DNA of 64,000 nt. It comes from Euphorbia lathyris. Taxonomy: Eukaryota > Streptophyta > Magnoliopsida > Malpighiales > Euphorbiaceae. Below the pieces are notes generated by a model that was not told the DNA's origin, made no database searches, and saw only the letters and a program-made list of their open reading frames with translations. A program made the position numbers and the translations under genes. The DNA is taken from contig NC_088913.1 in the NCBI RefSeq assembly GCF_963576675.1, positions 75,391,001 to 75,455,000 of the forward strand. The letters are read 5' to 3'. Positions 6,339 to 63,974 of this stretch are shown here, piece by piece; positions within the stretch are counted from its first letter, which is position 1, and the number at the start of each line of letters is the position of its first letter.

Positions 6339-6339
6339 A

Positions 6340-10620: not shown

Positions 10621-10655
10621 TTTCTCACACCCTACAAACACAAAACACCATCACC

Positions 10656-13824: not shown

Positions 13825-13832
13825 TATAAATA
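13825..13832 (+). promoter_or_regulatory. LTR TATA box (Athila, right)
   Basis: TATAAATA at the position equivalent to 1557-1564. Confidence 0.65.
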
Positions 13833-20411: not shown

Positions 20412-20416
20412 GCAGT
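20412..20416. repeat. Target-site duplication of element 3 (left)
   Basis: GCAGT, repeated at 39967-39971; it lies inside the integrase coding sequence of element 2. Confidence 0.93.
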
Positions 20417-22787
20417 TGTTAGACGAGGTGCCGCGGCCTAATCTCCCGGGCGGACCGGGGGGTGGACAACCTCATGGCGACGTAAGCGGTGATTGGCACC
20501 GAAAGCAACCAATCGTGGAATCAAGCTGCTCGGCAGTACCGGAGCTCGGAGATATGGAAGAGTCGCCACCCACGAATGGGAAAATGAACACCGATCCCTT
20601 ACGGGAGACCGGTGTGGGTTCGGGAAACTTAGGTACGAGCCGAGAAGGCTAGCTCCTTTCCGGAGAAAGGCTACTAGGCACCCCGACATCGCCCGGTTAT
20701 GAACCACCGGCCTCCTACTCAGCATGTTAGGCGATAACGGACTAATCGTATACTTCTTTAAGTTTAAAATTCATTTGAAACCCTTTTCTTTCTTTTTTCA
20801 GAAACCGTTTTGAGCATATATTATTGGAAAGCCATACTAGTAAAGAATCACCCATTTATGTTTATACATACACAGAGAAGGGGGAGAAAGAAGTGATTTA
20901 TTTACAACTTCATTTACATGTCACGCTGTGTGTTTATTCTACACTAACTTATTTTCCCCAAAACGAGTTTATTTACATGGTTCGCACCTTAATCACCGTT
21001 GGAACGATTTAGGTGCGTTTTAAAACCCCGTTTGATGAAGTTTTACCCGAATCACCGTTGGAACGACTCAAGTGTTTGAAAACGTTAGGATAAGAACCTT
21101 TTAATGAGAAAACGTGGTTAAACATACAAGTCAATATCATGTTGTACAAATCCTTTAAGAAAATGATTCTAAAACTCTATTATTCACAAAGAAAACGATT
21201 TTAATTATAATGTTCGCTTAATCCGCCGTTGGAACGGACTAAGGTTTTAAGACGTGGTGTTTTGAGAAATGATTTGAAATGTTAACAAAAACAACTCTAT
21301 TTACTTACATTAGGAAACTCTAAAAATTCATTAGTTTAAATAATTGTATTGAAAGCTCTCTTTTTGTGATTTATTTTCCCCTTTTCTTTAATGAATCTTT
21401 ACTTGTCATAATTAAAACAATAAACCATTGAATCACAAGTCACTCCCAAATAAAGCCCATTTGAAATAGGGACCCATGAATGGTCCAAAAGGATAAAAGA
21501 AATAATATAAACATATATATATATATATATATATATACATTTCAATCAAAAAGAGAATGTGAAATAAAAGTTGATGGAAAAAGATTATATTGTACATATA
21601 TGAAAATACTAAACATAACACATTTATACTTTAAACATTTGAAAATAGTAACTAAAACTCTTAAATAAGAAAATAACATTTATTCCCAAAATAGTTTTTC
21701 TTAATAATAATTGATATAGCCCAAAATATCCCAAAACTATATATATACATAACTAATATAGTTTTAAATGTCAAAAATAATATATATCCACCCCAATATC
21801 TACTAATTATCCCCCAAAATGCCCAAGTAAATAACATTTAAAATAAAATCTAATATAACTCAAATGAATGAAAAATAGAATATATATATATACCTATACT
21901 TATAATTAAAAATAGAATAATAATAAAAAAGCATACCAATATTCTAAAATAATTACATATACTAAAGGTCTAAAATAATTTGAAAAACATATATTACATA
22001 ACTATACATATATATATTAAGGATTAAAAGCTTAAAAGTTAAGAAAAAAGGACTGAAATGGCATCTTTTACGTTTTGGCAGATTTACCGATGGAAAATCC
22101 GTCGGTAAACAGCATTTAGTGACAGAAATGACAAATTACAGCAGCACTCCAATATTCTCCAGATTTATTCGAAAGCTTTAAATTAAATCTAATTCAATCG
22201 TTTTGGATTTCCGAACTACCAAAAATGGATCATAGTCGAAAACGAAAGTTCCTAAACGACGTTTTTTATTTCAAATCATTATTTGGAAATTTCTTTTAAA
22301 TTAAAAACTTGTAATTACAACGTTTTCGATACCCGAACTACCTTTTTATCGGATCACGGTTCGTATTGGGATATCAAAACGAGGTTTTTTATTTTAAAAC
22401 AAAACCGAATTTTATTCAACATGAAATGGAAATTAAATAAATACGCTAATTAAATAAAATGTGACAACATAAATAAATAACTAAATAAATAAAAACTATA
22501 ACATAAAAATAAATAGGAGAAGAAGATAAATAAAATAAAATAAAAGAGAGTCTAGTCCTCGGATAATACCTTAAATTCGGTATCTGACAGTCGAAGCCGA
22601 TTGATTCCACGAACCACGATCTTCCGTTTTTAATGAAAATTTAGTAAAAATTGAACTTTAGGAAATTTGGAATTTTTGAGAAAAAAATATTTTTCTCAAA
22701 AAAATTCACTCTCTCTCTCTAAAAATGTTTAGAGTGAGAAAGCTCTCTCCAAAAATCCCCCCTCACAATGCATGGGGATCCGTGCCC

Positions 22788-22795
22788 TTTTTATA
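22788..22795 (-). promoter_or_regulatory. LTR TATA box, element 3 (3' LTR)
   Basis: TATAAAAA on the minus strand in CCCTATAAAAAGGG, directly downstream (element sense) of the palindrome array. Conserved at 39318-39324 and, on the + strand, at 57177-57184 in element 4. Confidence 0.75.
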
Positions 22796-22815
22796 GGGAA
22801 ACGGATCCCCGGAAC

Positions 22816-23009
22816 TTTGGGCGACGCCCAAGTAAAATTGGGCGTCGCCCAAAGTCGTTGGGCGGCCGCCCAACAATAGTTGGGCAGCCGCCCAACATTT
22901 GTTGGGCGAGCGCCCAACGCAAGGTTGGGCGCCCGCGCCCAACCGTCGTTGGGCGCTCGCCCAACGTTCGTTGGGCGTTCGCCCGACGTGGTTGGGCGCC
23001 CGCCCGACG
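22816..23009 (-). repeat. Array of nine GC-rich palindromes in element 3 3' LTR
   Basis: Nine units follow the form GTTGGGCG-NN-CGCCCAAC (two shorter ones nearest the TATA box: TTGGGCGACGCCCAA types). Spacers are 0-8 bases. The arms are kept, while the central bases differ from unit to unit (GGCC, AGCC, GAGC, GCTC, GTTC, GCCC). Beyond the array is a CG-rich 280-base region. Reading frames here are an artefact of composition. Confidence 0.93.
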
Positions 23010-23442
23010 ACCCTCGGGGCGTGCCTCGCGCCGTCGGGCACGCGCACCCCTCGGCCGCCGAGCGCGCGTTCCGCGCCATCAGATGCTCACATGTCGCGGC
23101 CGCCGAACGCGCGCTTCACGCTACCGGGCGCGCACGCTCAGTGGCCCACGAGAGCGCGCACCGTGCCACCAGACCCGAGCATCGCTCGGACGTCGAGAGC
23201 GTGCCACTCGCGGTGCGTCTGACGGACGCCGAGCGCACGTCCCGTGCCGCCGAGCGGGCGTTCGACCACTGTCGTCCGCGTGCTGGATGCCGCTAAGCAC
23301 CCGCGCCATGCCGCTAATTTTCCTTCCTTATTATACGCTTATTATTCTTTATATTTTTTGTTTTTCACAACTTCCGGGATCAATTGATTCAACCGTCTTG
23401 TTTTCAGGTTTTCGTCACAGGTCCTCCGACTCGGTGTCTACA

Positions 23443-23461: not shown

Positions 23462-23674
23462 TTTGACAGTGATGTGTGTGTTTTGAAAACGTTTTTTTCT
23501 AACATAACACATGCAATGTAAAACATATAAAAGTAAAAGACACGTAAAGAGTAGGAGTGAGCATACGTGACCTTCGCGCTGCGCGTTCCGGTGTCATTCT
23601 CCGATTCTTTCCATCCTTGCCTCTGAATCGGCCGTCGGTGGACGTTTTTCTCTCGGAATCTAGCGTATGTTGAC

Positions 23675-24707: not shown

Positions 24708-25068
24708 AGGGCAAAAAGGTTCTCTCTAACGATTCTGAATTCTTTTGAAACACCGTTGTCTGTATTTTCTCACTGGAGCTAGTGTCCTGGAGGTTTAATG
24801 GGAACGTGTTTTGGTCTGGAATGATATAGATCAATGATTGTTTTTCTGTTGACTGTCGTCTGTATTTTGACTTGTGTCACTGTTCTGTAAAAATTGACTG
24901 TTGTCTGGAGTTCATATCTTGGTAATGTTGGTTGTTGTCTGGGAGAAATGCAGGCTGAAACGGACTGCAAATCGGAGGTCTGTGCACCTAGTAATTAATT
25001 ATTTACTTTTTACCTTTATGTCAAATCGTACTTCTTTCACTATTTACGGGAATGCCATTCCCTTTTCC
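24708..25068. other. Spacer upstream of the PMD gene
   Basis: It contains several scattered copies of a CTGTTGTCTG-like word (24757, 24850, 24897, 24931) but no ORF. It is probably promoter-proximal DNA of the antisense gene. Confidence 0.5.
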
Positions 25069-28659: not shown

Positions 28660-30624
28660 TTACGAAAAGTATTTCTTAAGCCTATCCAGGTTGGTAGGTT
28701 CGGAGAATTCCATGCCGTCCATTGTGGTTAACTTCACCGCTCCTTTGCTTAGTATCTTCTTCACGACGAATGGTCCTTCCTAGTTAGGCCTGAACTTCCC
28801 CCTCGGGTCGGTGTGCATCACACGGATCTGTTTCAGCACCAAATCTCCTTCTTTGATAGGACTGGTCTTGACCTTTTTATTGAAAGCCCGAGCCATCCTT
28901 CTTTGATATAACTGTACATGGTAAAGCGCTTCCATCCTTTTTTTGTCAACTAGAGCCAACTGCTCACATCGCTTCTTCGCCCATTCCGCCTCGGGAATTT
29001 CTGCCTCCACTGCGATTCTCAACGATCGCTTTTCGATCTCAATCGGCAAGACTGCTTCTGTTCCATACACCAAAGAGAATGGCGTTGCCCCAGTTGAGGT
29101 TCTAATTGTCGTGCGATAAGCCCATAATGCGAGTGGGAGCTGCTCATGCCAATTCCGATGTGATTCCACCGTTTTTACGAGAATCCTCTTAAGGTTCTTA
29201 TTAGCTACTTCTACTGCTCCATTAGCCTGTGGACGGTATGGAGAAGACCTGTGATGTTCAATGCCATATTCTCGGAAAAGATTTCTTACTTCCCCCTGAA
29301 ACTGGACCCCATTATCCATAATCATGTGATGAGGCACTCCGAACCTGGTGATCAAGTGTTTTTCAATGAACTTTCTCATCTGCTTGGATCCCAGTTTGCT
29401 AAACGACTCTGCTTCTACCCACTTGGTGAAATAATCGATGGCGACAACAACAAACTTATGTCCATTTGAAGCGTTAGGCCTTACTTCGCCGATGATGTCA
29501 ATGCCCCAAGCAGCGAATGGCCAAATAGGTGCTAGCACATGTAGTTCCATGGCCGGAAGATGACTGCAATCGCCGTGGATTTGACAATCATGGCATTTCT
29601 TTGCATACTCGTTACAATCTCTTTCCATGGTGAGCCAGTAGAAGCCTTGCCTTATGATTTTCTTTGCTAACACCGCTCCTCCCATATGGGCCCCGCAAAT
29701 TCCTGAATGCACCGATTCCATCGCCTCGCGGGCTTCTCCCGCATCTAAGCACCTTAGCTGTAACCCATCGATGTGCCTTTTGTAAAGCAAGTTGTTGTGG
29801 ATGACGAACTGACGAGCTAGCCTTCTAATCACAGCTTGATCCCTAGGTTCTGACTCTGCCGGATATGTTCCATGCTTCATGAAGTTCACGATATCGAAAT
29901 ACCATGGTTTTTCATCTGCCCCTAACAGCATTACGCCCTCGTAGCATGGTTTGTGAGATCTCCTTAATACCAACGGTTTCGAAGCAAGGTTCCGGGGGTT
30001 GTCCCAAACTGACACCAAAGTGGCCAAAGCATCCGCCGCCTGGTTCTGCGCTCGAGGAATGTGATAGAAACGACACTCCTTGAATCTTTGTGCCAACCCT
30101 TCTAGCTGATCTAGATATGGACGTAGCCTTTCTTCCCTCACTTCCCAGTTTCCTTGTGCCTGTTCGATGATCAACTTGGAGTCACCCCAAATTTCGACAT
30201 ATGATGCTCCCAGTGCCGCTAATGACTCTAAACCATAAATGCACGCTTCATATTCGGCCATATTATTAGTGAGAGGGAAGGATAACTTCTTGGCCATCGG
30301 GATCCTTTCTCCTTCCGGTGAGGTAAGTAGTACTCCTACTCCGGCTCCATTCGAATTAACTGCTCCATCGAAGAACATTTTCCACGATATAACTTCGATT
30401 GTGTTCAAGTGCTCATCGGGGAAATCATAGCTTACTTCTTCCTCTTCTGCATTCAGGGGTTGGTTAGCCAGAAACTCTGCCACGGCCCTTCCTTTGATAA
30501 CCTTCTTCGTCACATATTCAATGTCAAACTCAGACAGAAGCAACAACCATCGGGCTAACTTCCCCGTCAAGGATGGAGTTCGGTACAAATACTTCACGGG
30601 GTCCATCCGAGAAATAATGATCAC
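28660..30624 (-). pseudogene. Element 3 RNase H end, aRNH and integrase
   Basis: The frame opens near 30624 after a frameshift. It gives the RNase H tail (ARWLLLLSEFDIEYV), then the archaeal-type second RNase H (MFFDGAVNSNGAG, NNMAEYEA, IWGDSKLII, QAADALA) that marks Tat elements. Integrase follows with a zinc finger (HSGICGAHMGG, CHDCQIHGD), the DDE core (WGIDIIGE, IMDNGVQF, ANGAVEVANKN), and SYRTT-like WAYRTTIRTSTGATPF. A TAG at 28780-28782 replaces the Trp codon expected in the W-E-G-P-F motif; coding similarity continues to the stop at 28660-28662, ending RLKKYFS. The catalytic residues are intact. Confidence 0.9.
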
Positions 30625-30625
30625 T

Positions 30626-31306
30626 TTATACGATTGAAAATAAATGCCGTAGTTTCTTTGTCAACCATACTACTGCCACACATATCTTTTCGATCATGTT
30701 GTACTTGAGCTCGTACTCCAGGAACTTCTTACTCAAATAATACACCGCGTGCTCCACACCGGTGTCTCCCTCTTGAGCCAACATTGCCCCAATAGATCGC
30801 TCCTCGATCGCTACATAGAGGAGAAACGGCTTCCCTAGTTTAGGCGGTCTCAGCACTGGCGGATTAGACAAATAGTTCCGGACGCTCTCCAAAGCTTGTT
30901 GACACTTATCATTCCAGATGGTGGGTTGGTCTTTCCTTAACAACTTAAAGATTGGCTCGCAGATTGCGGTGAGTCTCGCTATGAATCGACTGATATATTG
31001 AACCTGCCCTAGAAACCCTCTCACTTCTTTCTCATTTTTTGGCGCCGGCATCTCCTGTATAGCCTTCACTTTATCAGGATCCACCTCGATTCCCTTATTT
31101 CCGATTACATAGCCTAAGATTTTCCCCGACGAAACGCCAAAAAAGCACTTCTTCGGGTTTAACCTTAGCTTGAATTCTGCAATTCGGGCCAAAAACTTCT
31201 CGAGCGTGGCAAAATGCCCTTCTCTTGTCTCTGATTTGACCATCATATCGTCCACATAGACTTCTACCTCCTTGTGTATCATATCGTGGAACAGTGCTGT
31301 GGCCAT
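30626..31306 (-). pseudogene. Element 3 reverse transcriptase palm/thumb and RNase H start
   Basis: It continues the RT after a TAG that replaces a Gln codon directly after GLKNAGATY. It has the catalytic YVDDM box, LNPKKCFFGV, LGYVIGNKGIEVDP, RGFLGQVQYISRFI and the RNase H start (LYVAIEERSIGAMLAQ...). The frame breaks at about 30640, near RHLF, by a 1-base shift into the frame of the next segment. Confidence 0.9.
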
Positions 31307-31309
31307 TCT

Positions 31310-34300
31310 CTAATAAGTTGCCCCGGCATTTTTCAACCCAAACGGTATTACTATGTAACAGTATGTCCCCCACTCAGTTGTGAACGAGGTTTTTGCTTTG
31401 TGCTTTTCGGCCATCTGAACTTGCATGTAGCCCATGAAACCATCCACATTCGTGTGTAATACACTTGACGCTGCACTGTCGATCAATACGTCGATATGAG
31501 GCAATGCGAACTCATCCTTGGGGCATGCCTTGTTAAGATCTCTGTAATCGACGCACATCCTCACTTTGCCGTCCTTCTTCGCAATTGGTACCACATTTGC
31601 GACCCAAGGGGGATAGTCGATCACTTCGATGAATCCTGCTTCTAACTGCTTCTTCACCTCCTCCCTGATCTTATCTGCCCATTCGGGTCTCATACGTCGG
31701 AGCTTCTGCTTTACGGGCTTTGCTTCGGGATAAGTTGGAATGCGGTGAGTTACGATAGATTGATCAATTCCAGGCATGTCTTCGCATGTCCAAGCGAATA
31801 CAATTTCGTATTTTTTAATTATTCTCTCAAATTCTTTTCTCTCTTCAATAGTTAATGCTTGAGCAATTTGTATAAGTTTAGGATTTTCATCCGTACCAAG
31901 ATTGAAAGTTGATATTTCTATCGTATTGATTTCAAATGTAGGCATGTTATATGAATGAGAATGCATGGAATGATCATGATCAACATCAAGCAAGTAAGCA
32001 AAATCAGAATTCATTTCATTGATAGCATGGGTGATTACATCATCTGATTCAAACAAAGCAGTAATACAATTTTCATCATCAGGGTTCTCAGGCTTCTCAT
32101 GAATTTTGGAGGTACTAGGCTCATCTCCCGCTCCTGCAGTTGCTTCAATAGTAACGACCTGCTCCTCAGCATTCAAGTCTAACATCATAATCTCCTCGAC
32201 AAAGCAGCTCGCTTTTCCACTGCCCCAATCGGCAACATCATCAAAGATCTCAAATCCTGGCAGAATCTTTCCTTCGGCGCTAACAGCCACTTCCGACTCA
32301 TCATCAGACTCATCCCAGATGTTGATCGGAACCCTCTGATTGATACCTTCCTCGTCGGAGGAACTTCCCCAAACGTCCACGACCATCAGATCCATTATGT
32401 GAGGGACATTCGGATTTATGTAGGAAGGGTCCGACGATCCATACCGAGCCCAGCCTATCAGTTCTTCATAGTCCTTGAGGAACACTCCATTCATTCTTCT
32501 AGCCACGAGTGGAGTAGTACCCTTCCGGATGCACATGAGTTGCTCCTGATCACTCAAGGTAACCCGACACGAGGCATACTTGAACCTCCATCTTCTAGCA
32601 TAATCCACAAATGGTTCCTCGGGGAATTGCCTGATCCTTTCTAAATCTTCCAACGACCCTATCCACGGAATGTACCTCTCATACCTCTGCACAAAGGCCT
32701 CCATGAGGGATCCCCAGTCCCCTTTTGTCTTTGCCGCGAGCATTCGGTGCCACATCAAAGCTTCTCCTATGAGTGTCTTTAGAAAATGCTGGACTAACTC
32801 ACTTCGGTAGAGTCCCGCGTCAAACCTGTAGGTACGGAAACGGTTTATGTGATCAATGGGGTTCTCATCTCCCTTATACTTAGACATGGCTGTTACTGCT
32901 TCAGGCGTCTCCTCTTCGGATAATGCAGGCATTTCCTCTGGACATTCCCGTGCGGCGTATTTCTTGATGAATCTCTTAGTCATTTTTGCCCAATCTGCTT
33001 TAACGTGCATTGGAAGAGACATGTACCACACTAGTGACTCTCCTGCCAGTGAGTTGCAAAACAAGCTCGTGATCTCCCCCTCTTTGAAACCTAGAGGACC
33101 CATAGCCGACAGATAAAAATGCAAGTGCTCCATGGGGTCCTTCCCTTCATTATACTTGCTGACAGTCGGAAACGGACGTTTGATAGGCCCAATTTGCATT
33201 GCGCTATATTCCCCTGCCCGTATTTGGTCTCTTCGATACTTCATCAAAAACAAGCTTGACACCAGTGACCAATCATGCTTAGTCGCGTCGGGTAGCGATT
33301 GAAACCACTTCAAAGGTTCGCCCACCAGCGAAAGATGGAACCATGGAGCGACTTCTTCCACTTTGTATGGCTCTCCAAACATAACACACACGTATCCATA
33401 CAAATGAGCTTCGGGGTCTTCTACCCCACTAAACAATTTCAACACAGGCATGATCCTCCGAGATGAGACTTCCCCGGTCTCCTCAGTTTTAGTTCTATCA
33501 TCCATCACTTCTTCCGTTGGCTCCTCTTCCAAAGCCGACACATACAAACCATTTCCCACATTATTCTTCTCATCGGAGTCCAACAACTCCTCTACGTTCT
33601 CCTCGAAGGATTCCATCACTACACATTCTGTCAAACCAACTCCGATCATGCTCACCCTATGATTAGGCAATGGATTACGCCTAGTGGAAGGGTTTGCTGA
33701 CGAAGGATCAGCTATCTTTTTCTCCTCGATTAAATCCTGGATTTCGTGTTTCAGCCTCTCACAATTCTCAATTGTATGCCCATAACTGCTATGGAATTCA
33801 CAATACCCTCTAGCATGTATCTGCGGAGTAGGTTGAGCTTTGTTATACGGGGTAAGGGCTTTCAACAATCCCTTTTTTTGCAGACGGTCGAAAACTTTCG
33901 CGTAGGTCTGATCGAACTTGGTGAACCGCCTCTTTTCAATAGCATTAAGATCAACCACTTTCACTGCTGCGGATTCCGTACTCGCACTAGGCCCTCCGGC
34001 ACTATATCCCGACTTCGTCCACTTGGTATAAGCTTTCTTTGGCTCCCTATCCCCTTCAACAGTCAAGGCACAACTATACATCTGATTGAAATCAGTAAAT
34101 GGCATATACCGCAACTCATTCTTGATATACGGCAACGTGTTGCCAACCACCATTCGGATCTGATCCTGCTCGAGCGGCTTTTGTTTCATCACTGCGGCCT
34201 TAGCCCTCCATCTTTTCACAAAATCGGAAAAGGATTCCCCAGCCTGTTGCTTAGTGCTCTCTAGCTCTTTCAAAGTGACCTCCAGCATGGTGTTAAAGCT

Positions 34301-35023
34301 ATACTGAGCGATGAATGACTTCGCTAACTCCTTCCAATCCCTCTTTGTCACCATCGGCAATGCATGGAACCATGTGAGGGCAGCCCCCTCTAGGTAGGTG
34401 TTAAACAGCCCTAGGACTTGATCCTCAGTCAGGATCGTGTGCTTCATCACAGCAACATACTGATTCATGTGAGCGGTGGGATCCCCCGTTCCATCGAACT
34501 TTTTCATGTCAGGGAGCCGGAATTTCAAAGGCAAAGCTGTTGCCGATAAACAATTCTTCAAGTTATAAAAGTCCTGACTCCCGGAACTTCCTCCACGCAA
34601 GTCCTGCACTTCCTGTGTGATGTGTTGCTTCCACTCCTCTTCCTTAGCTTTCTCTTTCTCTAACTGTTTTCGGATATAATCCTGATAATCCTCCTCATTC
34701 CCAAAGCGAGGACCATCGTTCACCTCATTCTCAGCACGCTTACTACCACTCTTGTTGTCCTTCAGTGCTAACTCAGCTAGCTGGGCCAAGATCGCGGCCA
34801 GCTGATCATTGATATTGTTCACAGAATTCTCCAATTCAGCCACTTTCTCGTCGGTCGCAGACATACTGACGGAAGACTGAGTATACCCAGATGAAGATGA
34901 TTCGGAAGCCACAACTACTGATTCTGAACTGTCTACTCGTAGCTGATCAAACTGTCTGACAAGCCGATTACTCTCGCGAAACCACAACCGCTTAATGATG
35001 ACGTCTGCGCGAACGGTGTCTAT
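31310..35023 (-). CDS. Element 3 gag polyprotein with four tandem capsid-type domains, fused to RT N-terminus
   Basis: One open frame of over 1,200 codons. Counting from codon 34987: a coiled-coil-like N-terminus (45-125); capsid domain 1 with its C-terminal half (about 164-305); a CEFHSSYGHTIENC knuckle-like motif (396-409); domain 2 (519-586); domain 3 (612-679); domain 4 with C-terminal half (704-848); an acidic linker (870-1030); and the RT fingers (from about 1060, VRMCVDYRDLNKAC) to a TAG at 31307. All four domains share a 68-residue pattern: DP/NP..H at its start, then G..L.W...L...K.DW......F...Y. No D-T/S-G protease motif is present between gag and RT. The start is ATA at 35021-35023 where element 4 has ATG, so initiation is lost in this copy. 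Confidence 0.88.
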   Translation of the reverse strand: MDTVRADVIIKRLWFRESNRLVRQFDQLRVDSSESVVVASESSSSGYTQSSVSMSATDEKVAELENSVNNINDQLAAILAQLAELALKDNKSGSKRAENEVNDGPRFGNEEDYQDYIRKQLEKEKAKEEEWKQHITQEVQDLRGGSSGSQDFYNLKNCLSATALPLKFRLPDMKKFDGTGDPTAHMNQYVAVMKHTILTEDQVLGLFNTYLEGAALTWFHALPMVTKRDWKELAKSFIAQYSFNTMLEVTLKELESTKQQAGESFSDFVKRWRAKAAVMKQKPLEQDQIRMVVGNTLPYIKNELRYMPFTDFNQMYSCALTVEGDREPKKAYTKWTKSGYSAGGPSASTESAAVKVVDLNAIEKRRFTKFDQTYAKVFDRLQKKGLLKALTPYNKAQPTPQIHARGYCEFHSSYGHTIENCERLKHEIQDLIEEKKIADPSSANPSTRRNPLPNHRVSMIGVGLTECVVMESFEENVEELLDSDEKNNVGNGLYVSALEEEPTEEVMDDRTKTEETGEVSSRRIMPVLKLFSGVEDPEAHLYGYVCVMFGEPYKVEEVAPWFHLSLVGEPLKWFQSLPDATKHDWSLVSSLFLMKYRRDQIRAGEYSAMQIGPIKRPFPTVSKYNEGKDPMEHLHFYLSAMGPLGFKEGEITSLFCNSLAGESLVWYMSLPMHVKADWAKMTKRFIKKYAARECPEEMPALSEEETPEAVTAMSKYKGDENPIDHINRFRTYRFDAGLYRSELVQHFLKTLIGEALMWHRMLAAKTKGDWGSLMEAFVQRYERYIPWIGSLEDLERIRQFPEEPFVDYARRWRFKYASCRVTLSDQEQLMCIRKGTTPLVARRMNGVFLKDYEELIGWARYGSSDPSYINPNVPHIMDLMVVDVWGSSSDEEGINQRVPINIWDESDDESEVAVSAEGKILPGFEIFDDVADWGSGKASCFVEEIMMLDLNAEEQVVTIEATAGAGDEPSTSKIHEKPENPDDENCITALFESDDVITHAINEMNSDFAYLLDVDHDHSMHSHSYNMPTFEINTIEISTFNLGTDENPKLIQIAQALTIEERKEFERIIKKYEIVFAWTCEDMPGIDQSIVTHRIPTYPEAKPVKQKLRRMRPEWADKIREEVKKQLEAGFIEVIDYPPWVANVVPIAKKDGKVRMCVDYRDLNKACPKDEFALPHIDVLIDSAASSVLHTNVDGFMGYMQVQMAEKHKAKTSFTTEWGTYCYIVIPFGLKNAGATY

Positions 35024-36936: not shown

Positions 36937-36954
36937 TCCCCAGCAGAGTCGCCA
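36937..36954 (-). other. Primer binding site of element 3
   Basis: TGGCGACTCTGCTGGGGA on the minus strand, two bases after the 5' LTR end. It is the complement of a tRNA 3' end (…CCA); I believe tRNA-Arg, as used by Ogre elements, but cannot check it here. The identical site is at 59546-59563 in element 4. Confidence 0.85.
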
Positions 36955-39317
36955 CTTGTTAGACGAGGTGCCGCGGCCTAATCTCCTGGGCGAACCGGGG
37001 GGTGGACAACCTCATGGCGACGTAAGCGGTGATTGGCGCCGAAAGCAACCAATCGTGGAATCAAGCTGCTCGGCAGGACCGGAGCTCGGAGATATGGAAG
37101 AGTCGCCACCCACGAATGGGAAAATGAACACCGATCCCTTGCGGGAGACCGGTGTGGGTTCGGGAAACTTAGGTACGAGCCGAGAAGGCTAGCTCCTTTC
37201 CGGAGAAAGGCTACTAGGCACCCCAACATCGCCCGGTTATGAACCACCGACCTCTTACTCAGCATGTTAGGCGATAACGGACTAATCGTATACTTCTTTA
37301 AGTTTAAAATTCATTTGAAACCCTTTTCTTTCTTTTTTCAGAAACCGTTTTGAGCATATATTATTGGAAAGCCATACTAGTAAAGAATCACCCATTTATG
37401 TTTATACATACACAGAGAAGGGGGAGAAAGAAGTGATTTATTTACAACTTCATTTACATGTCACGCTGTGTGTTTATTCTACACTAACTTATTTTCCCCA
37501 AAACGAGTTTATTTACATGGTTCGCACCTTAATCACCGTTGGAACGATTTAGGTGCGTTTTAAAACCCCGTTTGATGAAGTTTTACCCGAATCACCGTTG
37601 GAACGACTCAAGTGTTTGAAAACGTTAGGATAAGAACCTTTTAATGAGAAAATGTGGTTAAACATACAAGTCAATATCATGTTGTACAAATCCTTTAAGA
37701 AAATGATTCTAAAACTCTATTATTCACAAAGAAAACGATTTTAATTATAATGTTCGCTTAATCCGCCGTTGGAACGGACTAAGGTTTTAAGACGTGGTGT
37801 TTTGAGAAATGATTTGAAATGTTAACAAAAACAACTCTATTTACTTACATTAGGAAACTCTAAAAATTCATTAGTTTAAATAATTATATTGAAAGCCCTC
37901 TTTTTGTGATTTATTCCCCTTTTCTTTAATGAATCTTTACTTGTCATAATTAAAACAATAAATCATTGAATCACAAGTCACTCCCAAATAAAGCTCATTT
38001 GAAATAGGGACCCATGAATGGTCCAAAAGGATAAAAGAAATAATATAAACATATATATATATATATACATTTCAATCAAAAAGAGAATGTGAAATAAAAG
38101 TTGATGGAAAAAGATTATATTATACATATATGAAAATACTAAACATAACACATTTATACTTTAAACATTTGAAAATAGTAACTAAAACTCTTAAATAAGA
38201 AAATAACATTTATTCCCAAAATAGTTTTTCTTAATAATAATTGATATAGCCCAAAATATCCCAAAACTATATATATACATAACTAATATAGTTTTAAATG
38301 TCAAAAATAATATATATCCACCCCAATATCTACTAATTATCCCCCAAAATGCCCAAGTAAATAACATTTAAAATAAAATCTAATATAACTCAAATGAATG
38401 AAAAAGAGAATATATATATATACATATACTTATAATTAAAAATAGAATAATAATAAAAAAGCATACCAATATTCTAAAATAATTACATATACTAAAGGTC
38501 TAAAATAATTTGAAAAACATATATTACATAACTATACATATATATATTAAGGATTAAAAGCTTAAAAGTTAAGAAAAAATGACTGAAATGGCATCTTTTA
38601 CGTTTTGGCAGATTTCCCGACGGAAAATCTGTCGGTAAACAGCATTTAGTGACAGAAATGACAAATTACAGCAGCACTCCAATATTCTCCAGATTTATTC
38701 GAAAGCTTTAAATTAAATCTAATTCAATCGTTTTGGATTTCCGAACTACCAAAAATGGATCATAGTCGAAAACGGAAGTTCTTAAACGACGTTTTTTATT
38801 TCAAATCATTATTTGAAAATTTCTTTTAAATTAAAAACTTGTAATTACAACGTTTTCGATACCCGAACTACCTTTTTATCGGATCACGGTTCGTATTGGG
38901 ATATCAAAACGAGGTTTTTTATTTTAAAACAAAACCGAATTTTATTCAACATGAAATGGAAATTAAATAAATACGCTAATTAAATAAAATGTGACAACAT
39001 AAATAAATAACTAAATAAATAAAAACTATAACATAAAAATAAATAGGAGAAGAAGATAAATAAAATAAAATAAAAGAGAGTCTAGTCCTCGGATAATACC
39101 TTAAATTCGGTATCTGACAGTCGAAGCCGATTGATTCCACGAACCACGATCTTCCGTTTTTAATGAAAATTTAGTAAAAATTGAACTTTAGGAAATTTAG
39201 AATTTTTGAGAAAAAAATATTTTTCTCAAAAAAATTCACTCTCTCTCTCTAAAAATGTTTAGAGTGAGAAAGCTCTCTCCAAAAATCCCCCCTCCCAATG
39301 CATGGGGATCCGTGCCC

Positions 39318-39324
39318 TTTTATA
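39318..39324 (-). promoter_or_regulatory. LTR TATA box, element 3 (5' LTR)
   Basis: TATAAAA on the minus strand in CCCTATAAAAGGGC. This is the promoter that would drive the element's genomic RNA. Confidence 0.75.
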
Positions 39325-39344
39325 GGGAAACGGATCCCCGGAAC

Positions 39345-39532
39345 TTTGGGCGACGCCCAAGTAAAATTGGGCGTCGCCCAAAGTCGTTGGGCGGCCGCCC
39401 AACAATGTTGGGCGATCGCCCAACCATTGTTGGGCGATCGCCCAACCATTGTTGGGCGATCGCCCAACGGCGTTGGGCGAGCGCCCAACCATCGTTGGGC
39501 GCTCGCCCAACGTGGTTGGGCGCCCGCCCGAC
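39345..39532 (-). repeat. Array of nine GC-rich palindromes in element 3 5' LTR
   Basis: It again has nine units, but the centres differ from those of the 3' LTR. Three successive units have a GATC centre (GTTGGGCGATCGCCCAAC), absent from the other LTR, while the GTTC, AGCC and CGCG-containing units of the other LTR are missing. Confidence 0.92.
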
Positions 39533-39966
39533 GACCCTCGGGGCATGCCTCGCCCCGTCGGGCGCGCGCACCCCGCGGGCGCCGAGCGCGCGTTCCGCCC
39601 CGTCAGACGCTCACATGTCGCGGCCGCCGAATGCACGCTTCGCGCTACCGGGCGCGCACGCTCAGTGGCCCACGAGAGCGCGCACCGTGCCACCAGACCC
39701 GGACATCGCTCGGACGTCGAGAGCGTGCCACTCGCGGTGCGTCTGACGGACGCCGAGCGCACGTCCCGTGCCGCCGAGCGGGCGTTCGACCATTGTCGTC
39801 CGCGTGCTGGATGCCGCTAAGCACCCGCGCCGTGCCGCTAATTTTCCTTCCTTATTATACGCTTATTATTCTTTATATTTTTTGTTTTTCACAACTACCG
39901 GGATCAATCGCTTCAACCGTCTTGTTTTCAGGTTTTCGTCACAGGTCCTCCGACTCGGTGTCTACA

Positions 39967-39971
39967 GCAGT
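39967..39971. repeat. Target-site duplication of element 3 (right)
   Basis: GCAGT, matching 20412-20416. Confidence 0.93.
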
Positions 39972-40929
39972 TATTTTGGCGATTGCTTCTGCCTCGATCC
40001 ATTTGGTAAAGTGATCGACTGCTACCACTACAAAACACTTCTGCGCTAAGGCTATCGGAAATGGGCCGAGCAGATCAATGCCCCATACGGTAAAAGGCCA
40101 GTGTGACGATGCCTTTGAGCGGAGCCGCCGGCGCGTGATGAGCATTGGCGTGCAGTTGGCACGCCTGACAGCTACGAACCAGTCGCATTGCGTCGGAGTC
40201 CATGGTTTGCTAATAAAGTCCCTGTAGGCGGGCTTTCTTCGCAATTGACCGAGCGCCCTGATGCGAGCTGCATACGCCCTGGTGTATCTCCTTCAAACAG
40301 TGATCCCCTTCCTCCTCGGATATGCAACGCAGCCACGGGTGCTTGGAGGACTTTCGATAGAGTAGGCCGTCGTGCATTGCATACTGCCAGGGATGCCGGA
40401 CCACGAGGGATGCCTGCGTCCGATCCTCCGGCAGTGTCCCATCTTCTAGATACCTGATTATCGGACTCCTCCAACCGCTTGCTGCTGCGTCTGCTGTATC
40501 GATCTGTAATGAGCACTCTGTGTTAATAGCTGGGGTCGAAGCAGTTTCGATAAGGGTATGCGGGTCACGGGACTGCTCGCCTGCTGCGAGAGCGGCAATA
40601 GCATCTGCCTCTTCATTCTCTTCTCGTGGTACAAGTGTAAGGCAAAAGGTTACTCCTTTGTTCTTGAGGTCCTCAAGCAGGGATTTGGCGAGCGCCAAGT
40701 ATTGACACATTATCGGGTCTTTTGCTCTGTAAGTACCGCTGACGTGGCTAACAACGAGTTTGGAGTCCGAGTATACTGTCAGGTGCCTGGTTACCATTGT
40801 TTTGGCTAACCGAAGAGCTGCGATTAGGGCCTTATATTCTGCTTGATTGTTCGTCGTTGGAAAGTCGAGTCGGACGGCGTACCGTAGTCGGAGGTTATTC
40901 GGTCCCTAAATGGCAATGCATGCGCCTGC
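39972..40929 (-). pseudogene. Element 2 aRNH end and integrase N-terminus
   Basis: From 40929 down, the aRNH domain continues past a TGA and a TAG: NNQAEYKALIAAL, VYSDSKLVV and EADAIAALA are visible (open from 40797). The integrase zinc-finger region follows (HQGVCSSHQGARS) to about 40210. A frameshift leads to the frame 39972-40244 with WGIDLLGPFP (first catalytic Asp), VVAVDHFTKWIEAEAI, where element 3 interrupts. Not functional. Confidence 0.85.
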
Positions 40930-42003
40930 TCACCCTAGGCCGCAAGACCCGTCTACACTCATGGTCCACATATCGCTGCTGTGAGCTCTTTGTAGTGTGA
41001 GATCGCTAGTTGATGATCCGGTAAATTCTACAATGAAGTCGGACAGCACTTGAGCTTTGATTGCCGTACGGGGCTCAAAACGTATGTCGAACTGCGATAG
41101 TCGCACCGACCAGTTGGTGATCCGACCGGAGACTTCTGGTTTCTGGACTGCCTTCTTGAGAGGATAATTGGTCTTGACCACAACCGTATGCGCTTGGAAA
41201 TATGGTCTGAGACGCTCGGATGCTTGTGTGATGGCGAACAGAGCCTTCTCCACCTCGGAGTATCGGATTTCTACACCCTTCAGGACCTTGCTCAAAAAAT
41301 AAATTGGGTAGAGCTCTGTTCCCTCTTCTTGAGTTAAGACGACTGTCATAGTTTCATCGGCGATGGTGAAGTACAGTTGGATGTCCTGTCCTTGCTTTGG
41401 TACCGACAGTAGTGGGGGCGTGGCAAGGAAAGTTTTAATGGCGTTGAATGCCGCCTGGCAATCCGTGGACCATTTGAAGGGGTGCTCCTTCTTGACTGCT
41501 TTGTAAAAAGGCAAGCATCGCTGTGCCGAGCAGGAAATAAATCGGCCCAAGGCGATAACCCTCCCGTTGAGCCTTGGAACTCCTTGTAGATTGCGCAGTG
41601 CTTCCATTTCTAAGATCGCCTTGATCTTTACGGGATTAGGCTCGATACCTTTCTCCGAAACCACACAACCCAGGAACTTGCCGCTACGAATACCGAAGAA
41701 ACATTTCTCCGGGTTTAGCTTGAGGTTGTAATCCCTGAAAATTTTAAATACCTCCGCCAAGTCACGCGGGTGGTCACTCTCAACAGCGCTTAGGACGACC
41801 ATGTCGTCAATGTATACTTGTACCGTTTTGCCGATGAGGTGAGTGAACATCTTATCTATTAGTCGCTGGTATGTGGCCCCCGCATTCTTCAAACCGAAAG
41901 GCATTACGTTGTAGCAATATGTGCCTTCATTCATTATGAAGGAGGTCTTCTCGGCATCGATCGGGTCCAGAGGGATTTGCTGAAAACCAGCGATGGCATC
42001 AAA
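40930..42003 (-). pseudogene. Element 2 reverse transcriptase (N-terminus deleted) and RNase H
   Basis: Similarity starts abruptly at 42003 with FDAIAGFQQIPLDP, a late RT finger/palm motif, so the first RT motifs are missing. Then come MPFGLKNAGATYQRL, the catalytic YIDDM, LNPEKCFFGI, LGCVVSEKGIEPNP, the thumb, RNase H (LYFTIADETMTVVL), and the start of aRNH (MSVDGSCG), ending in a TGA at 40930. The Asp-Asp pair is intact but the fold would not be. Confidence 0.88.
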
Positions 42004-43805: not shown

Positions 43806-44098
43806 TAATTAGGATACGTGGAACAGTGATCCGAGCTCTCTTCGAGGGGTACTCGTGTTCCTCGAGGGTCGTCTCTGTGCGGGGAGCGGTCCCTGGGAAC
43901 ACTCCGACGATCAAGTTAGTTAGTCGTTCGAGAGTATTGATAATCTATTCAAAATGAGTTAGAGTGTTTGTTACCCGATCCCTTTACCTTGGTTGCCTCC
44001 TCCTTATTTATAGTGAATCCTCTTGGGCCTTTGAGGCCTCTCGCCTTTTAGCCTGCCGGGCCCATGGGCCTAATGGGCCAATGAGATATTCCGAATCA
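43806..44098 (-). repeat. Element 2 5' LTR (293 bp)
   Basis: Pair of 15000-15291. TATAAATA on the minus strand at 44005-44012. Followed outside by the TATTG duplication (44099-44103). Confidence 0.92.
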
Positions 44099-44103: not shown

Positions 44104-44304
44104 TAAAATGTCAGTGTTCAAAATATTGTGGATATTCAATTACTTTTAGTTTGCATATATTACATGAGCAATGAAATTTAGTAGTCATGGAATCATTTAT
44201 GAAAAACGAATATAAAATTTTAATAGGCAAGAATACTAATTAATTGTATTATAATAAATAAGAATATAGAACTAAATAAAAAGATAACATATAAAGTTAA
44301 TAGG
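44104..44304 (-). repeat. Right arm of the split inverted repeat
   Basis: Reverse complement of 14792-14994. Beyond 44304 the arm's partner lies past the Athila insertion and so outside the window. Confidence 0.85.
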
Positions 44305-56211: not shown

Positions 56212-56545
56212 CTAAAGCCAATTGTTCTTGTAACTAATACCAGAAGAACCAAGATGTCTATCATGAGCTCTTTGTGGTAATGGCTTGGTTAAGGGATCTG
56301 CAATGTTGTCCTCAATAGGCACCTTTTCTACTCTCACATCTCCCCTGGCTATAATCTCCCTAATGAGATGATATCGCTTGAGGTAATGCTTGGATGCATT
56401 ATGAGACCGTGGTTCCTTTTCTTGTGCAATGGCTCCATTGTTATCACAGTACAAAGTAATGGGATTTACAATGTCAAGCACCACTCCTAGTTCTATTATG
56501 AACTTCCTAATCCAAACTGCCTCCTTTGCAGCTTCTGCAGCTGCT
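56212..56545 (-). pseudogene. Ty1/copia RNase H C-terminus, cut by element 4
   Basis: The minus strand encodes AAAEAAKEAVWIRKF, LYCDNNGAIA, SKHYLKRYHLIRE, and NIADPLTKPLPQ, the standard end of copia RNase H, then a stop near the PPT. The part before AAAEAA is replaced at 56546 by the LTR of element 4. The rest of the copia element lies beyond the window. Confidence 0.92.
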
Positions 56546-56964
56546 GTAGACACCGAGTCGGAGGACCTGTGATGAAAACCTGAAAACAAGACGGTTGAAG
56601 CGATTGATTCCGGAAGTTTTAAAAAATATATAAAGAATAATAAGCGAAGGAAAATTAGCGGCACGGCGCGGGTGCTTAGCGGCATCCGGCACGCGGACGA
56701 CAATGGTCGAACGCCCGCTCGGCGGCGCGGGACGTGCGCTCAGCGTCCGTCGGACGCACCGCAAGTGGCACGCTCTCGACGTCCGAGCAATGCCCGGGTC
56801 CGATGGCACGGGGCGCGCTTTCGTGGGCCGCTGAGCGCACGTGCCCGGTAGCGCGAAGCGCGCGTTCGGCGGCCGCGACGTGTGAGCGTTCGGCGGGGCG
56901 GGACGCGCGCTCGGCGGTCGCGGGGTGCGCACGCCCAATGGCTCGAGGCACGCCCCGAGGGTCG

Positions 56965-57155
56965 TCGGGCGGGCGCCCAACCACGTCGGGCGAACGCCCG
57001 ACGGAGGTTGGGCGCGGGCGCCCAACCTAGCGTTGGGCGGTCGCCCAACGACGTTGGGCGATCGCCAAACAAATGTTGGGCGGTAGCCCAACACTAGGTT
57101 GGGCGGCCGCCCAACCCCTATGGGCGACGCCCAATTTCTTTTGGGCGTCGCCCAT
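56965..57155 (+). repeat. Array of nine GC-rich palindromes in element 4 LTR
   Basis: Nine units again, just upstream of the TATA box (57177). Centres in order: GGGC, GAAC, GCGGGC, GGTC, GATC, GGTA, GGCC, then two short ones. Two units have lost perfect symmetry (GATCGCCAAAC and GGTAGCCCAAC). Confidence 0.92.
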
Positions 57156-57176
57156 TGGTCCGGGGACCCGTTTGCC

Positions 57177-57184
57177 TATAAAAG
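57177..57184 (+). promoter_or_regulatory. LTR TATA box, element 4
   Basis: TATAAAAG in GCCTATAAAAGGCACGG, at the same place as in element 3. Confidence 0.75.
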
Positions 57185-59545
57185 GCACGGATCCCCATGC
57201 AAAAAAAAAAGGAGGGAAGGGGAGGAGGAATCCTTAGAGAGCTTCTCACACTAGATATTTTTCTAGAGAGAGAAAGTTGATAAAGTTGATTTTTTTAGGA
57301 AAAAACATTTTTTTTCCTAAAAATTGAAAATCTCTAAATTTCCTAAGTTCAATTTTTACTAAATTTTTTATAAAAAAAACGGGAGCTCGTGGTTCGTGGA
57401 ATCAATCGGCTTCAACTGTCAGATACCGAATTCAAGGTATTATCCGAGGACTAGACTCTTTATTTTATTTAACTTATTCTCTTCTTCTATTTTTATGCTA
57501 TAGTTTTTATTCATTTAGTCATTTATTTATTTTATCACATTTTATTTAATTAGCGTATTTATTTAATTTTCGTTTCGTGTTAAATAAAATTCGGTTTTGT
57601 TTTAAAATAAAAAACCTCGTTTTGATGTCCCAATACGAACCGTGATCCGATAAAAGGTAGTTCGGGTATCGAAAACGTTGTAATTACAAGTTTTTAATTT
57701 AAAAGGAATTTCCAAATAATGTTTTGAAATAAAAAACGTCGTTTAGGAATTTCCGTTTTCGACTATGATCCGTCTTTGGTAGTTCGGAAACCCAAAACGA
57801 TTGAATTAGATTTAATTTAAAGCTTTTGAATAAATCTGGAAACATTTAGGAGTGCTGCTGTAATTTACCTATTCTGTCACTAAATGCTGTTTACCGACGG
57901 ATTTTCCGTCGGTAAATCTGCCAAAATGTAAAAAATGCCATTTCAGTCCCTTTTTCTTAACTTTTAAGCTTTTAATCCTTGGTGTGTATATGTATAGTTA
58001 TGTAATATATGTTTTTTTCAAATTATTTTAGAACTTTAGCATATATAACCATTTTAGAGTATTTGTATACTATTTTTATTCTATTTTACAATATAAGTAT
58101 AAGTATATATACGTATTCCTTTTTTGTTATTTTGGGTTGTGTTTTAAAGGTTAGTTATTTGGTATTTTGGAAAATAATTAATATATATTAGTATATGGTA
58201 TTCTTGGCATTTAAAACTATATTAGTTATGTATATGTATAGTTTTGGAATATTTGGGTTATTTTAGTGATTATTGAATGAAATTATTTTTGGATAAGCAT
58301 TATTTTCTTAGTTATAGGATTTACTTATTATTTTCACATTTTCAAAGTATAGATATATTGTACCTATTATTTTTATATACATATAGCTTCTTTTGTATTA
58401 ACTCTTATTTTATATTCTATTTTTGATTTAAATGTATATATGTATGTACAAATTATTTTCTTTACTCTTTGAGCCCATTCATGGGTCCATATTTCAAATG
58501 GGCTTTATTTAAGTGTAAATATTAGTTAAAATAAGTTTATTGCTCTAATTATAACAATTAGAGAGTCCATTAAATAAGTGGGGAAAATAAATCACAAAAA
58601 GAGAGTTTTCAATTGAATTATTTAAACTAATGAGTTTTTTTAGTTTCCTAAAGTGAATAAATCGAGTCATTTTTGTTAGCATTTTAAATCATTTCTCATA
58701 ATATCACGTTTTAAAACCTTAGTCCGTTCCAACGACGGATTAAGCGAACATTGTAATTAAAATCGTTTTCTTTGTGAATAATAGAACTTTTTGAATCATT
58801 TTCTTAAAGGATTTGTACAAAATAAAATTGACTTGTATGTTTAACCACGTTTTCTCATTAAAAGGTTTTTATCTCAAATGTTTTCAAATACTCGAGTCGT
58901 TCCAACGGCGATTCGGGTAAATTTCATCAAACGGGGTTTTAAAACGCACCTAAATCGTTCCAACGGCGATTAAGGTGCGAACCATGTAAATAAACTCGTT
59001 TTGGGGAAATAAGTTAGTGTAGAACAAACACACAACATAACATTTAAATACGGTTGTAAATAAATCACTTCTTTCTTCCCCATCTCTGTGTATGTATAAC
59101 ATAAATGGGTGATTCTTTATTGACGTGGCTTTTCAATAATATATGCTCAAAACGGTTTCTAAAAAGAGAAAGAAAAGGGTTTCAAATGAATTTTAAACTT
59201 AAAGAAGTATACGATTAGTCCGTTATCGCCTAACATGCTGAGTAGGAGGCCGGTGGTTCATAACCGGGCGATGTCGGGGTGCCTAGTAGCCTTTCTCCGG
59301 AAAGGAGCTAGCCTTCTCTGCTCGTGCCTAAGTTTCCCGAACCCACACCGGTCTCCCGCAAGGGATCGGTGTTCATTTTCCCATTCGTGGGTGGCGACTC
59401 TTCCATATCTCCGAGCTCCGGTCCTGCCGAGCAGCTTGATTCCATGATTGGTTGCTTTCGGCGCCAATCATCGCTTACGTCGCCATGAGGTTGTCCACCC
59501 TCCGGTCCGCCCGGGAGATTAGGCCGCGGCACCTCGTCTAACAAG

Positions 59546-61484: not shown

Positions 61485-63974
61485 ATGGATACCGTTCGCG
61501 CAGACGTCATCATTAAGCGGTTGTGGTTTCGCGAGAGTAATCGGCTTGTCAGACAGTTTGATCAGCTACGAGTAGACAGTTCGGAATCAGTAGTTGTGGC
61601 TTCTGAATCATCTTCGTCTGGGTATACTCAGTCTTCCGTCAGTATGTCTGCAACCGACGAGAAGGTGGCTGAATTGGAGAATTTTGTGAACAATATTAAT
61701 GATCAGCTGGCCGCAATCTTGGCCCAGCTAGCTGAGTTAGCACTAAAGGACAACAAGAGTGGTAGTAAGCATGCTGAGAATGAGGTGAACGATGGCCCTC
61801 GCTTTGGGAATGAGGAGGATTATCAGGATTATATCCGAAAACAGTTAGAGAAAGAGAAAGCTAAGGAAGAGGAGTGGAAGCAACACATCACACAGGAAGT
61901 GCAGGACTTGCGCGGGGGAAGTTCCGGGAGTCAGGACTTTTATAACTTGAAGAATTGTTTATCGGCAACAGCTTTGCCTTTGAAATTTTGGCTCCCCGAC
62001 ATGAAAAAGTTCGATGGAAATGGAGATCCCACCGCTCACATGAATCAGTATGTTGCTGTGATGAAGCACACGATCCTGACTGAGGATCAAGTCCTGGGGC
62101 TGTTTAACACCTATCTAGAGGGGGCTGCCCTCACATGGTTCCATGCATTGCCGATGGTAACAAAGAGGGATTGGAAGGAATTAGCAAAGTCGTTCATCGC
62201 TCAGTATAGCTTTAACACCATGCTGGAAGTCACTTTGAAAGAATTAGAGAGCACTAAGCAGCAGGCTGGGGAATCATTTTCCGATTTTGTGAAAAGATGG
62301 AGGGCTAAGGCCGCAGTGATGAAACAAAAGCCGCTCGAGCAGGATCAGATCCGAATGGTGGTTGGCAACACGTTGCCGTATATCAAGAATTAGTTGTGGT
62401 ATATGCCGTTTACAGATTTCAATCAGATGTATAGTTGTGCCTTGACTGTCGAAGGTGATGGGGAGCCGAAGAAAGCTTATACCAAGTGGACGAAGTCTGG
62501 ATATAGTGCCGGAGGGCCTAGCGCGAGTACGGAATCCGCAGCAGTGAAAGTGGTTGATCTTAATGCTATTGAAAAGAGGCGGTTCGCCAAGTTCGATCAG
62601 ACGTATGCTAAAGTTTTCGAGCGTCTGCAGAAAAAGGGATTGTTGAAAGCCCTTACCCCGTATAACAAAGCTCAACCTACTCCGCAGATTCAGGCTAGAG
62701 GGTACTGTGAGTTCCACAGCAGTTATGGACATACGATTGAGAATTGCGAGAGGCTGAAACACGAAATCCAAGATTTGATTGAGGAGAAGAAGATAGCTGA
62801 TCCTTCGTCAGCAAACCCTTCCGTTAGGCGCAATCCATTGCCTAATCATAGGGTGAGCGTGATCGGAGCTGGTTTGACAGAAACTGTAGTGATGGAATCC
62901 TTTGAGGAAGATGTAGAGGAGTTGTTGGACTCCGTCGAAAAAAGTAATGTGGGAAAAGGTCTGTATGTGTCCTTCTTGGGTGAGGAACGAGAGGATGAAC
63001 CGATGGAAGAAGGGTCAGATGGTGGAGCACCGTATGATGAAGATAGTGCTGAAGAGACCGGAGAAGGGTCGTCTCGGACTATTGTGCCAGATTTGAGTTT
63101 GTTTAGTGGAGGAAGAGATCCCGAGGTGCACTTGCGTGAATATATGCACAACATGTTTATTGAATCCTTCGGAGTAGATGAGATTGCTCAGTGGTTTCAT
63201 CATTCGCTGGTAGGCGAGCCTTTGGAATGGTTCCACTCATTACCCGACTCTTGCAAGCATGATTAGGATCAATTATCAGATTTATTCTTAGAAAAGTACC
63301 AAAGAGCCGAGGACAGGGCCGCAGAGCGCTTCGCAATGCAGATTGGACCTATCAAGCGTTCGCTACCGAGGGTTAGCAAGTATAATGGCAATAAGGATCC
63401 TATGGAACACCTTCATTTTTACTTGTCGGCTATGGCACCCTTGGGTTTTAAAGAAGAAGAGATCACTAGCTTGTTTTGTAATTCGTTGATGGGTGAACCG
63501 TTAATGTGGTACATGTCACTACCGATGTATGTTAAGACCGATTGGGCAGCAATGACGAAAAGATTTATCAAGGAGTATACAGTATGGATGCTGGCAGAGC
63601 AAACCCCTGACTCCCCGTCTTACCAAACACCTGATGCGGTGTTAGCAATGCCTAGGTATGGTGGATACCAGGATCCTGTGGAGCATGCGAGGATATTTCG
63701 CAATCATATGTATGACGTCGGATTTCCGCAGTGGGAGTTGCATGAACATTTTCCGGAAACCTTGATGGGTGAAGCCTTATTGTGGCATCAGGGTCTATCA
63801 GAGGAGGAGATGGGTCATTGGATACCGCTCCGAAGTGCCTTTGTGGCGAGATATGAAATGTACATTCCATGGACGAGATCCCTGGATGATCTGGACAGGA
63901 TTAGGCAATTCCCCGAGGAACATTTTGTGGATTATGCTAGAAGGTGGAGGCACCGTTGGCCGCAAGGAGGATGA
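61485..63974 (+). pseudogene. Element 4 gag with four tandem capsid-type domains, three breaks
   Basis: Starts with ATG (MDTVRADVII...), the codon lost in element 3. Domain 1 is at about 62010-62213 with its C-terminal half to about 62440, the knuckle CEFHSSYGHTIENC near 62706, domain 2 at about 63102-63305, domain 3 at 63382-63585, and domain 4 from 63657. Breaks: TAG at 62391-62393 where element 3 has Glu; TAG at 63264-63266 where it has Trp; and around 63950 a deletion of some 24 codons of the domain 4 C-terminal half with a frameshift (reading resumes in another frame as RRMSRVSLRDYD up to the window end). The same four-domain order as element 3 shows that the array is a family trait, not a local accident. 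Confidence 0.87.

Follow-up and report, generated by a model that had tools for sequence, protein, structure and literature searches.

The window analysed here, a stretch of 64,000 nucleotides from Euphorbia lathyris (assembly GCF_963576675.1, contig NC_088913.1, positions 75,391,001 to 75,455,000), contains element A, a long terminal repeat (LTR) retrotransposon that is 19.5 kb long and flanked by target duplications. The coding region of this insertion (copy A) holds, in frame, a second and expanded capsid unit, NTD2-NTD3-NTD4-CTD4 (NTD and CTD, N-terminal and C-terminal domain), at the position where the closest relatives have their aspartic protease block. The Ty3/gypsy elements are described in the survey PMC6317226 with one capsid and one protease; in element A the protease is gone and the capsid is multiplied, in the same place and within one frame.

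Capsid domains of the open frame

The minus-strand open frame P0001 comprises 1225 codons (34987 to 31313) and includes gag, the array of additional capsid domains and the start of the reverse transcriptase (RT). Four capsid-type domains, d1 to d4, are found at residues 164-231, 519-586, 612-679 and 704-771 (numbering from 34987). With the limits of Table 1, d1 reaches to residue 317 and d2 starts at residue 513, and a zinc knuckle (396-409) is localized in between. The TTG at 34987 had been taken as the start of the frame; the frame likely begins at the ATG at 34864, a codon aligned with residue 1 of the E. lathyris protein P0111. The extent given to gag in the first-pass annotation (31310..35023) runs beyond gag into RT.

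When eight segments of the frame were compared with each other by BLASTP, in a tiny database and with the composition correction switched off, the E values between the four domains ranged from 2e-18 (d1-d4) to 4e-9 (d2-d4). A hidden Markov model (HMM) was then built from 30 relatives without either of the two window copies. The segments of the relatives were located via a profile of the copy A domains and thinned at 85% identity, and only the sequences of the relatives entered the model. The scores of d1 to d4 are 120, 30.5, 44.9 and 64.5 bits in copy A and 116.3, 40.3, 45.5 and 52.8 bits in the second insertion (copy B, described below). The best score of 1000 shuffles of the array was 4.2 bits, or 6.3 bits with a shorter profile from 29 relatives, and a chance similarity of the domains is thus rejected. 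In copy A the matches cover the model positions 1-162 (d1), 3-78 (d2), 4-77 (d3) and 3-152 (d4). By this coverage, d1 and d4 carry an NTD and a CTD, whereas d2 and d3 are predicted to be NTD only. Both the four segments and this distribution of the C-terminal halves agree with what had been proposed from the letters of the sequence.

The Pfam family PF03732 (cut-off 24.1 bits), suggested as a check, recognises d1 (35.1 bits) and d4 (34.9 bits) as single domains, whereas d3 (17.6 bits) and d2 (12.5 bits) are below the cut-off; the array taken as one piece reaches 57.1 bits in 3 stretches. Structure models cover d2 and d4, and both predicted structures match capsid folds of retroelements. The NTD-only d2 takes the capsid fold, so this fold is not restricted to d1 or to d1 and d4. 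An NTD profile of 24 rows, eleven of which are pieces or neighbours of no capsid of known structure, detected Arc in the PDB with an E value of 9.5e-5.

The zinc knuckle separates d1 from d2, and a location of all four domains within gag proper is rejected on this basis. The ordinary Gag capsid is d1, and d2-d4 are a separate unit, with the composition NTD-NTD-NTD-CTD and in frame with RT. The "four tandem domains in a single gag" of the first-pass annotation are consequently replaced by one Gag capsid with its zinc knuckle, followed by a three-NTD unit at the protease position. The missing protease and copy B had both gone unnoticed in that annotation, whose four domains stand.

The array at the position of the protease

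In the relative P0002, the motif NPLPNH is present at 398, past the zinc knuckle, and the motif MPGFEIF at 880, ahead of RT. Between these two anchors are localized the protease motifs VLIDDGSA (611) and LLGRPWI (685) and the G-patch-like motif GMGLG (785). The Fagus-type sequences P0003 and P0004, which are closely alike, display the same order. In copy A the corresponding anchors NPLPNH (438) and LPGFEIF (909) enclose d2-d3-d4-CTD and no protease. A protease motif is found in 12 of the 14 relatives compared, and the motif GxGLG, on which the G-patch call is based, in 7 of the 14. The relatives P0018 and P0026 have matches to PF01585, the G-patch family.

No protease motif was found by a motif search of the copy A frame, and a Pfam scan of the copy A polyprotein, of the later pol pieces and of six extra open reading frames (ORFs) revealed no protease-type family. 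The scan of the pieces that flank the array in copy A gave no family at all. The linkers comprise about 75 residues before d2 and about 60 after the CTD, and they look too short for a protease domain.

The number of NTDs was determined in 109 relatives, obtained from a protein search that scored only the 7992 candidates sharing most words (about 674-2144 residues long). One NTD is present in 47 of them, none in 62, and two or more in 0; the counting profile was built from the four copy A domains, and a very diverged second NTD could escape it. Sub-threshold second matches were seen in five proteins, over 24-39 residues and with E values of 10 or worse (in one of the five, two weak matches at 5.4 and 11), and were rejected as hidden second NTDs. 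Among the 24 relatives with an NTD followed by RT, a protease motif lies between the two in 20, and not in the remaining four (P0008, P0010, P0055 and P0080). One protein from Lolium multiflorum (P0105) has an odd order, with a protease motif at 336 and the gag NTD at 1081-1150. The gypsy remnant that adjoins the 5' LTR of element A in the window (40210-43756, minus strand) has an ordinary layout with a single gag domain, the protease motif VDTGSS and RT, and contrasts in this with element A.

The second copy and the conservation of the array

Copy B (56545-64000, plus strand) is cut by the end of the window. It displays the same domain order as copy A, its second CTD being matched only in part. 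The two insertions have opposite orientations and different flanks. In blocks of 150 columns, the DNA identity of A and B is 0.90-0.99 from about 37350 to 33700 and 0.74-0.97 in the earlier part of the LTR, and it drops to 0.52-0.76 from about 33600 on. Such a pattern would be expected had the 5' part been exchanged or homogenised between subfamilies with long-diverged arrays.

The protein identity of the two arrays is about 61% over 291 codons, with 81, 68 and 152 differences at codon positions 1, 2 and 3, respectively. Over codons 516-803, the proportion of synonymous differences (pS) is 0.737 and that of nonsynonymous differences (pN) 0.236, the 95% range of pN/pS being 0.25-0.38; there are zero indels, and 1 of the 288 codons was skipped for a stop. 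The pS/pN values of d2, d3 and d4 are 0.728/0.235, 0.776/0.190 and 0.791/0.314, respectively. Because synonymous change is near saturation, an exact dN/dS would be unreliable. The near-saturated synonymous difference, against a low nonsynonymous one and with no indels, nevertheless shows that selection has kept the array, and a neutral evolution between A and B is not tenable. The proposal that the copies were kept thus finds support in purifying selection, with pN/pS below 1 for each of the three array domains.

A tree of 39 NTDs groups d2, d3 and d4 of copy A each with its counterpart of copy B (support 99/96, 95/89 and 100/97, respectively). By this pairing, the three members of the array were already distinct before the A and B arrays diverged, as the first reading of an old duplication had supposed. 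The array and the d1 of the element form one group (90/89), and the array likely arose by duplication from the Gag capsid of the element itself, although this origin is not proven. We infer that the capsid was first copied to the protease position and that its NTD was then multiplied.

Distribution of the array

A search with the A and B arrays among 6533 protein candidates recovered three proteins, all from E. lathyris. P0111 covers d1 to the linker, and its identity over 456 residues amounts to 93.6% with A and 95.4% with B. P0112 extends in its first part to the first residues of d2 and continues as a phospholipase gene model; the start of d2 thus seems to be present at one further locus or more. 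P0113 matches the linker only. The gene models P0112 and P0113 fuse the Gag end of the family to other coding sequence, by mis-annotation or as an element-derived exon. No complete array beyond the 64-kb window was present among these 6533 candidates, and a search with residues 505-865 alone gave no match at an E value of 0.01 or less among 1659 candidates. Scans of viral contigs gave 3 and 1 pattern matches, none of them confirmed. The occurrence of the array beyond one locus is therefore established for the second insertion in the same window; elsewhere it extends to the first d2 residues of P0112.

Among the open-licence literature matches listed (titles and abstract openings), there is no description of a multi-NTD Gag array; PMC8672886 treats the gag domains of many elements and not several within one element. 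This may be because the survey PMC6317226 removed the repeated-domain elements, in which case similar elements may have been filtered out.

Possible role and alternative explanations

We propose, with a probability of about 0.45, that the array acts as a second capsid linked to pol, the protease being supplied in trans or dispensed with. In the translation product the array would lie between Gag and RT and form a capsid segment linked to pol, its three NTDs and one CTD would join the lattice of the ordinary Gag, and the docked array would hold RT, RNase H and integrase inside the particle. Cleavage would be absent, or would be performed later by the protease of another element acting in trans. 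Two published observations are consistent with this proposal: Ty3 particles that lack protease are nevertheless built with a mature-like shell (PMC6525542), and plant elements with incomplete coding capacity survive through supply in trans from others (PMC9744471). A capsid of altered geometry, or a lattice of mixed composition, would be possible, as the first reading had supposed. A wider version, which we hold to be doubtful, is a protease-free lineage of giant plant elements where a three-NTD capsid subunit fused to pol forms a mixed lattice with Gag and replaces proteolysis for the packaging and holding of the enzymes.

Several observations weigh against a functional pol-linked capsid or against its derivation. 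The RT of copy A is interrupted by an in-frame stop (31310-31312), and a frame change is present ahead of the second RNase H. Three stops fall within the visible part of copy B, which is thus broken; since it ends with the window, the absence of the protease is established for copy A only. The constraint between A and B reflects past selection and says nothing of present activity. The downstream anchor PGFEIF is present in only 4 of the 14 relatives compared, and the exact borders of the block swap consequently rest on few sequences. Every Foldseek match of d2 has an E value above 0.001. Concerning the own-capsid origin, the group of the array and d1 is absent from the free tree in one of four reduced sets, yet not rejected (p-AU 0.52), and is weakly supported in the three others (74/48, 59/30 and 68/55, a bootstrap of 59-74%), with long branches involved.

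The main rival is that the array acts as an interference factor, an NTD-rich protein, released or translated, that would be incorporated into the capsids of rival or sister elements and would restrict their assembly, in the way of some truncated Gag relatives elsewhere. Two array domains are NTD only, and RTL8, a protein similar to the N-terminal part of the PEG10 capsid, is incorporated into PEG10 particles, whose number it reduces (PMC11684626). Among the structures matched by d2 there is also a PDB entry whose title names an endogenised Ty1 CA-CTD restriction factor. However, the array shares its frame with RT and does not form an ORF of its own, and its last domain is a complete NTD-CTD. 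The divergence between A and B is much greater in the array than in the 5' part, but it includes silent sites, which indicates age and recombination and not adaptive amino-acid change, and pN/pS is below 1 in each domain. We consider an interference factor unlikely.

Element A could also be a defective non-autonomous derivative: gag sequence would have been written over the protease by recombination, the element would depend on autonomous relatives to carry it, and the array would be inert. Copy A has no protease, lesions are present in the pol of A and the gag of B, and wheat has non-autonomous families in which gag-pro segments were replaced (PMC9744471). The near-saturated synonymous change, the pN/pS of 0.25-0.38 and the lack of any indel over codons 516-803 are unexpected under neutrality. 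They lead us to reject a neutral fossil as the full account and to judge an inert derivative improbable.

An artefact of assembly or annotation, or a single chimeric locus, is highly improbable: Neumann et al. 2019 did remove every repeated-domain element as likely mispredicted (PMC6317226), but element A has matching target duplications, and copy B, in opposite orientation and with different flanks, shares the domain order with an array that is about 61% identical at the protein level over 291 codons, so a single-locus artefact is rejected.

Features of the window

The features of the two insertions are listed in Table 1. Just inside the 3' LTR of element A, a tandem repeat with a 39-bp unit is found at 23568-24842, with 26 in-register copies of a 300-base reference. 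The minus strand is open for 401 codons at 23502-24704 (unit FLAILPTVHDRGS).

Table 1. Positions in the window of the features of element A (copy A) and of copy B.
Feature	Position	Strand	Evidence
Element A 5' LTR, 3010 bp, TGTAGAC...TCTAACA	36957..39966	-	97.4% identity to 3' LTR, 3036 aligned columns
Element A 3' LTR, 3026 bp	20417..23442	-	LTR comparison
Element A target-site duplication, ACTGC on the element's strand	39967..39971	.	
Element A target-site duplication, ACTGC on the element's strand	20412..20416	.	
Element A putative primer binding site TGGCGACTCTGCTGGGGA, 18-base candidate 3' of 5' LTR	36937..36954	-	
Copy A gag-array-RT open frame, likely ATG (P0001 residue 42) to in-frame stop within RT	31313..34864	-	
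Copy A d1, Gag capsid, NTD + CTD	34037..34522	-	120 bits, relatives' profile; PF03732 35.1 bits
Copy A zinc knuckle CEFHSSYGHTIENC	33761..33802	-	motif search
Copy A d2, capsid NTD only	33224..33451	-	30.5 bits; structure model and fold matches
Copy A d3, capsid NTD only	32948..33169	-	44.9 bits, sequence profile
Copy A d4, capsid NTD + CTD	32447..32896	-	64.5 bits; PF03732 34.9 bits; structure model and fold matches
Copy A LPGFEIF, motif common to closest relatives 3' of their protease block	32243..32263	-	
Copy A RT, N-terminal part, same frame as gag and array	31313..31798	-	
Copy A remaining RT (YVDD) and RNase H, past in-frame stop	30626..31306	-	RT_RNaseH
Copy A second RNase H (RVT_3, at 85-202) and integrase (Integrase_H2C2, rve), different frame	28780..30624	-	
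Element A antisense extra ORF, plant mobile domain PF10536, 76.3 bits	25940..26740	+	between integrase and 3' LTR
Copy B 5' LTR	56545..59543	+	
Copy B d1 (capsid), one stop	61989..62465	+	116.3 bits
Copy B d2, one stop	63084..63338	+	40.3 bits
Copy B d3	63363..63581	+	45.5 bits
Copy B d4, NTD + CTD start; frame breaks, window ends soon after	63645..63953	+	52.8 bits

Another LTR element is present on the plus strand at 1-14791, with LTRs at 1-2523 and 12261-14791 (97.2% identity), a gag match at 2704-3417 and a pol similarity at about 5121-7725 (82-94% identity to pieces of the E. lathyris sequence P0067). The segments 15000-15291 and 43806-44098 form a pair of 293 columns with 97% identity, adjoined by an inverted match of 90% between 14792-14983 and 44113-44304. 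Outside element A, a tandem repeat whose unit measures 124-128 bp occupies 18970-19644.

Comparison with known systems

According to PMC6317226, the canonical order of Ty3/gypsy is GAG-PROT-RT-RH-INT, and the Tat clade is characterised by a second RNase H (aRH), placed in the angiosperm lineages between RNase H and integrase. Element A has its second RNase H at this position and, by this character of its sequence, belongs to the Tat clade. It departs from the canonical order by the absence of a protease between the zinc knuckle and RT; the other order holds. Within Tat, an extra ORF with the plant mobile domain is described in 57% of Ogre elements, as a characteristic and not required feature, and element A has such an ORF, the antisense PF10536. 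The gag-pro and pol of Ogre are described in two ORFs, with an intervening region that acts as an intron (PMC6317226), whereas in element A gag, the array and the RT start are in one frame of 1225 codons. The primer binding site of Ogre is antisense to tRNA-Arg (PMC9289625). In a quick RT tree of 15 of the 34 rows extracted, element A is on a long branch with no starred placement. Its extra ORF and its size place it probably nearest to Ogre; it is termed Ogre-related and not Ogre because of the absent protease, the absent Ogre intron and the RT tree without placement. It thus resembles the Ogre/Tat elements of angiosperms by its second RNase H, its 3-kb LTRs, its length of 19.5 kb and its plant mobile domain ORF, and differs from them in that copy A has, instead of a protease, an array of capsid domains within a single intronless frame from gag into RT.

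Among the literature matches listed, the nearest published parallel is represented by the NA5 and NA6 variants of RLG_Sabrina in wheat, a plant gypsy family where gag-pro is replaced and the new segment is structurally like capsid-formation proteins (PMC9744471). In these variants the entire Gag-pro is replaced, RT and integrase are absent, and a viral origin is suggested by the authors of PMC9744471. Unlike Sabrina, element A retains Gag, only the protease block is swapped, and RT remains in frame; the new segment appears nearest to the element's own capsid, with weak support.

A relative of the N-terminal capsid part that acts without a full capsid is known from RTL8 and PEG10 (PMC11684626); in humans RTL8 is encoded by a gene of its own and acts as an antagonist, whereas the domains of element A sit in the polyprotein of the element. 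How an element could package pol in the absence of its own protease can be tested on element A. Its array also resembles the ancient double-domain capsid of retroviruses, where capsid domains were multiplied via an internal duplication (PMC5379526). That event was inferred by structure comparison for the retroviral ancestors, whereas in element A the copies are still recognisable by sequence and whole extra NTDs were added, so that it offers an example of capsid domain duplication at the sequence level.

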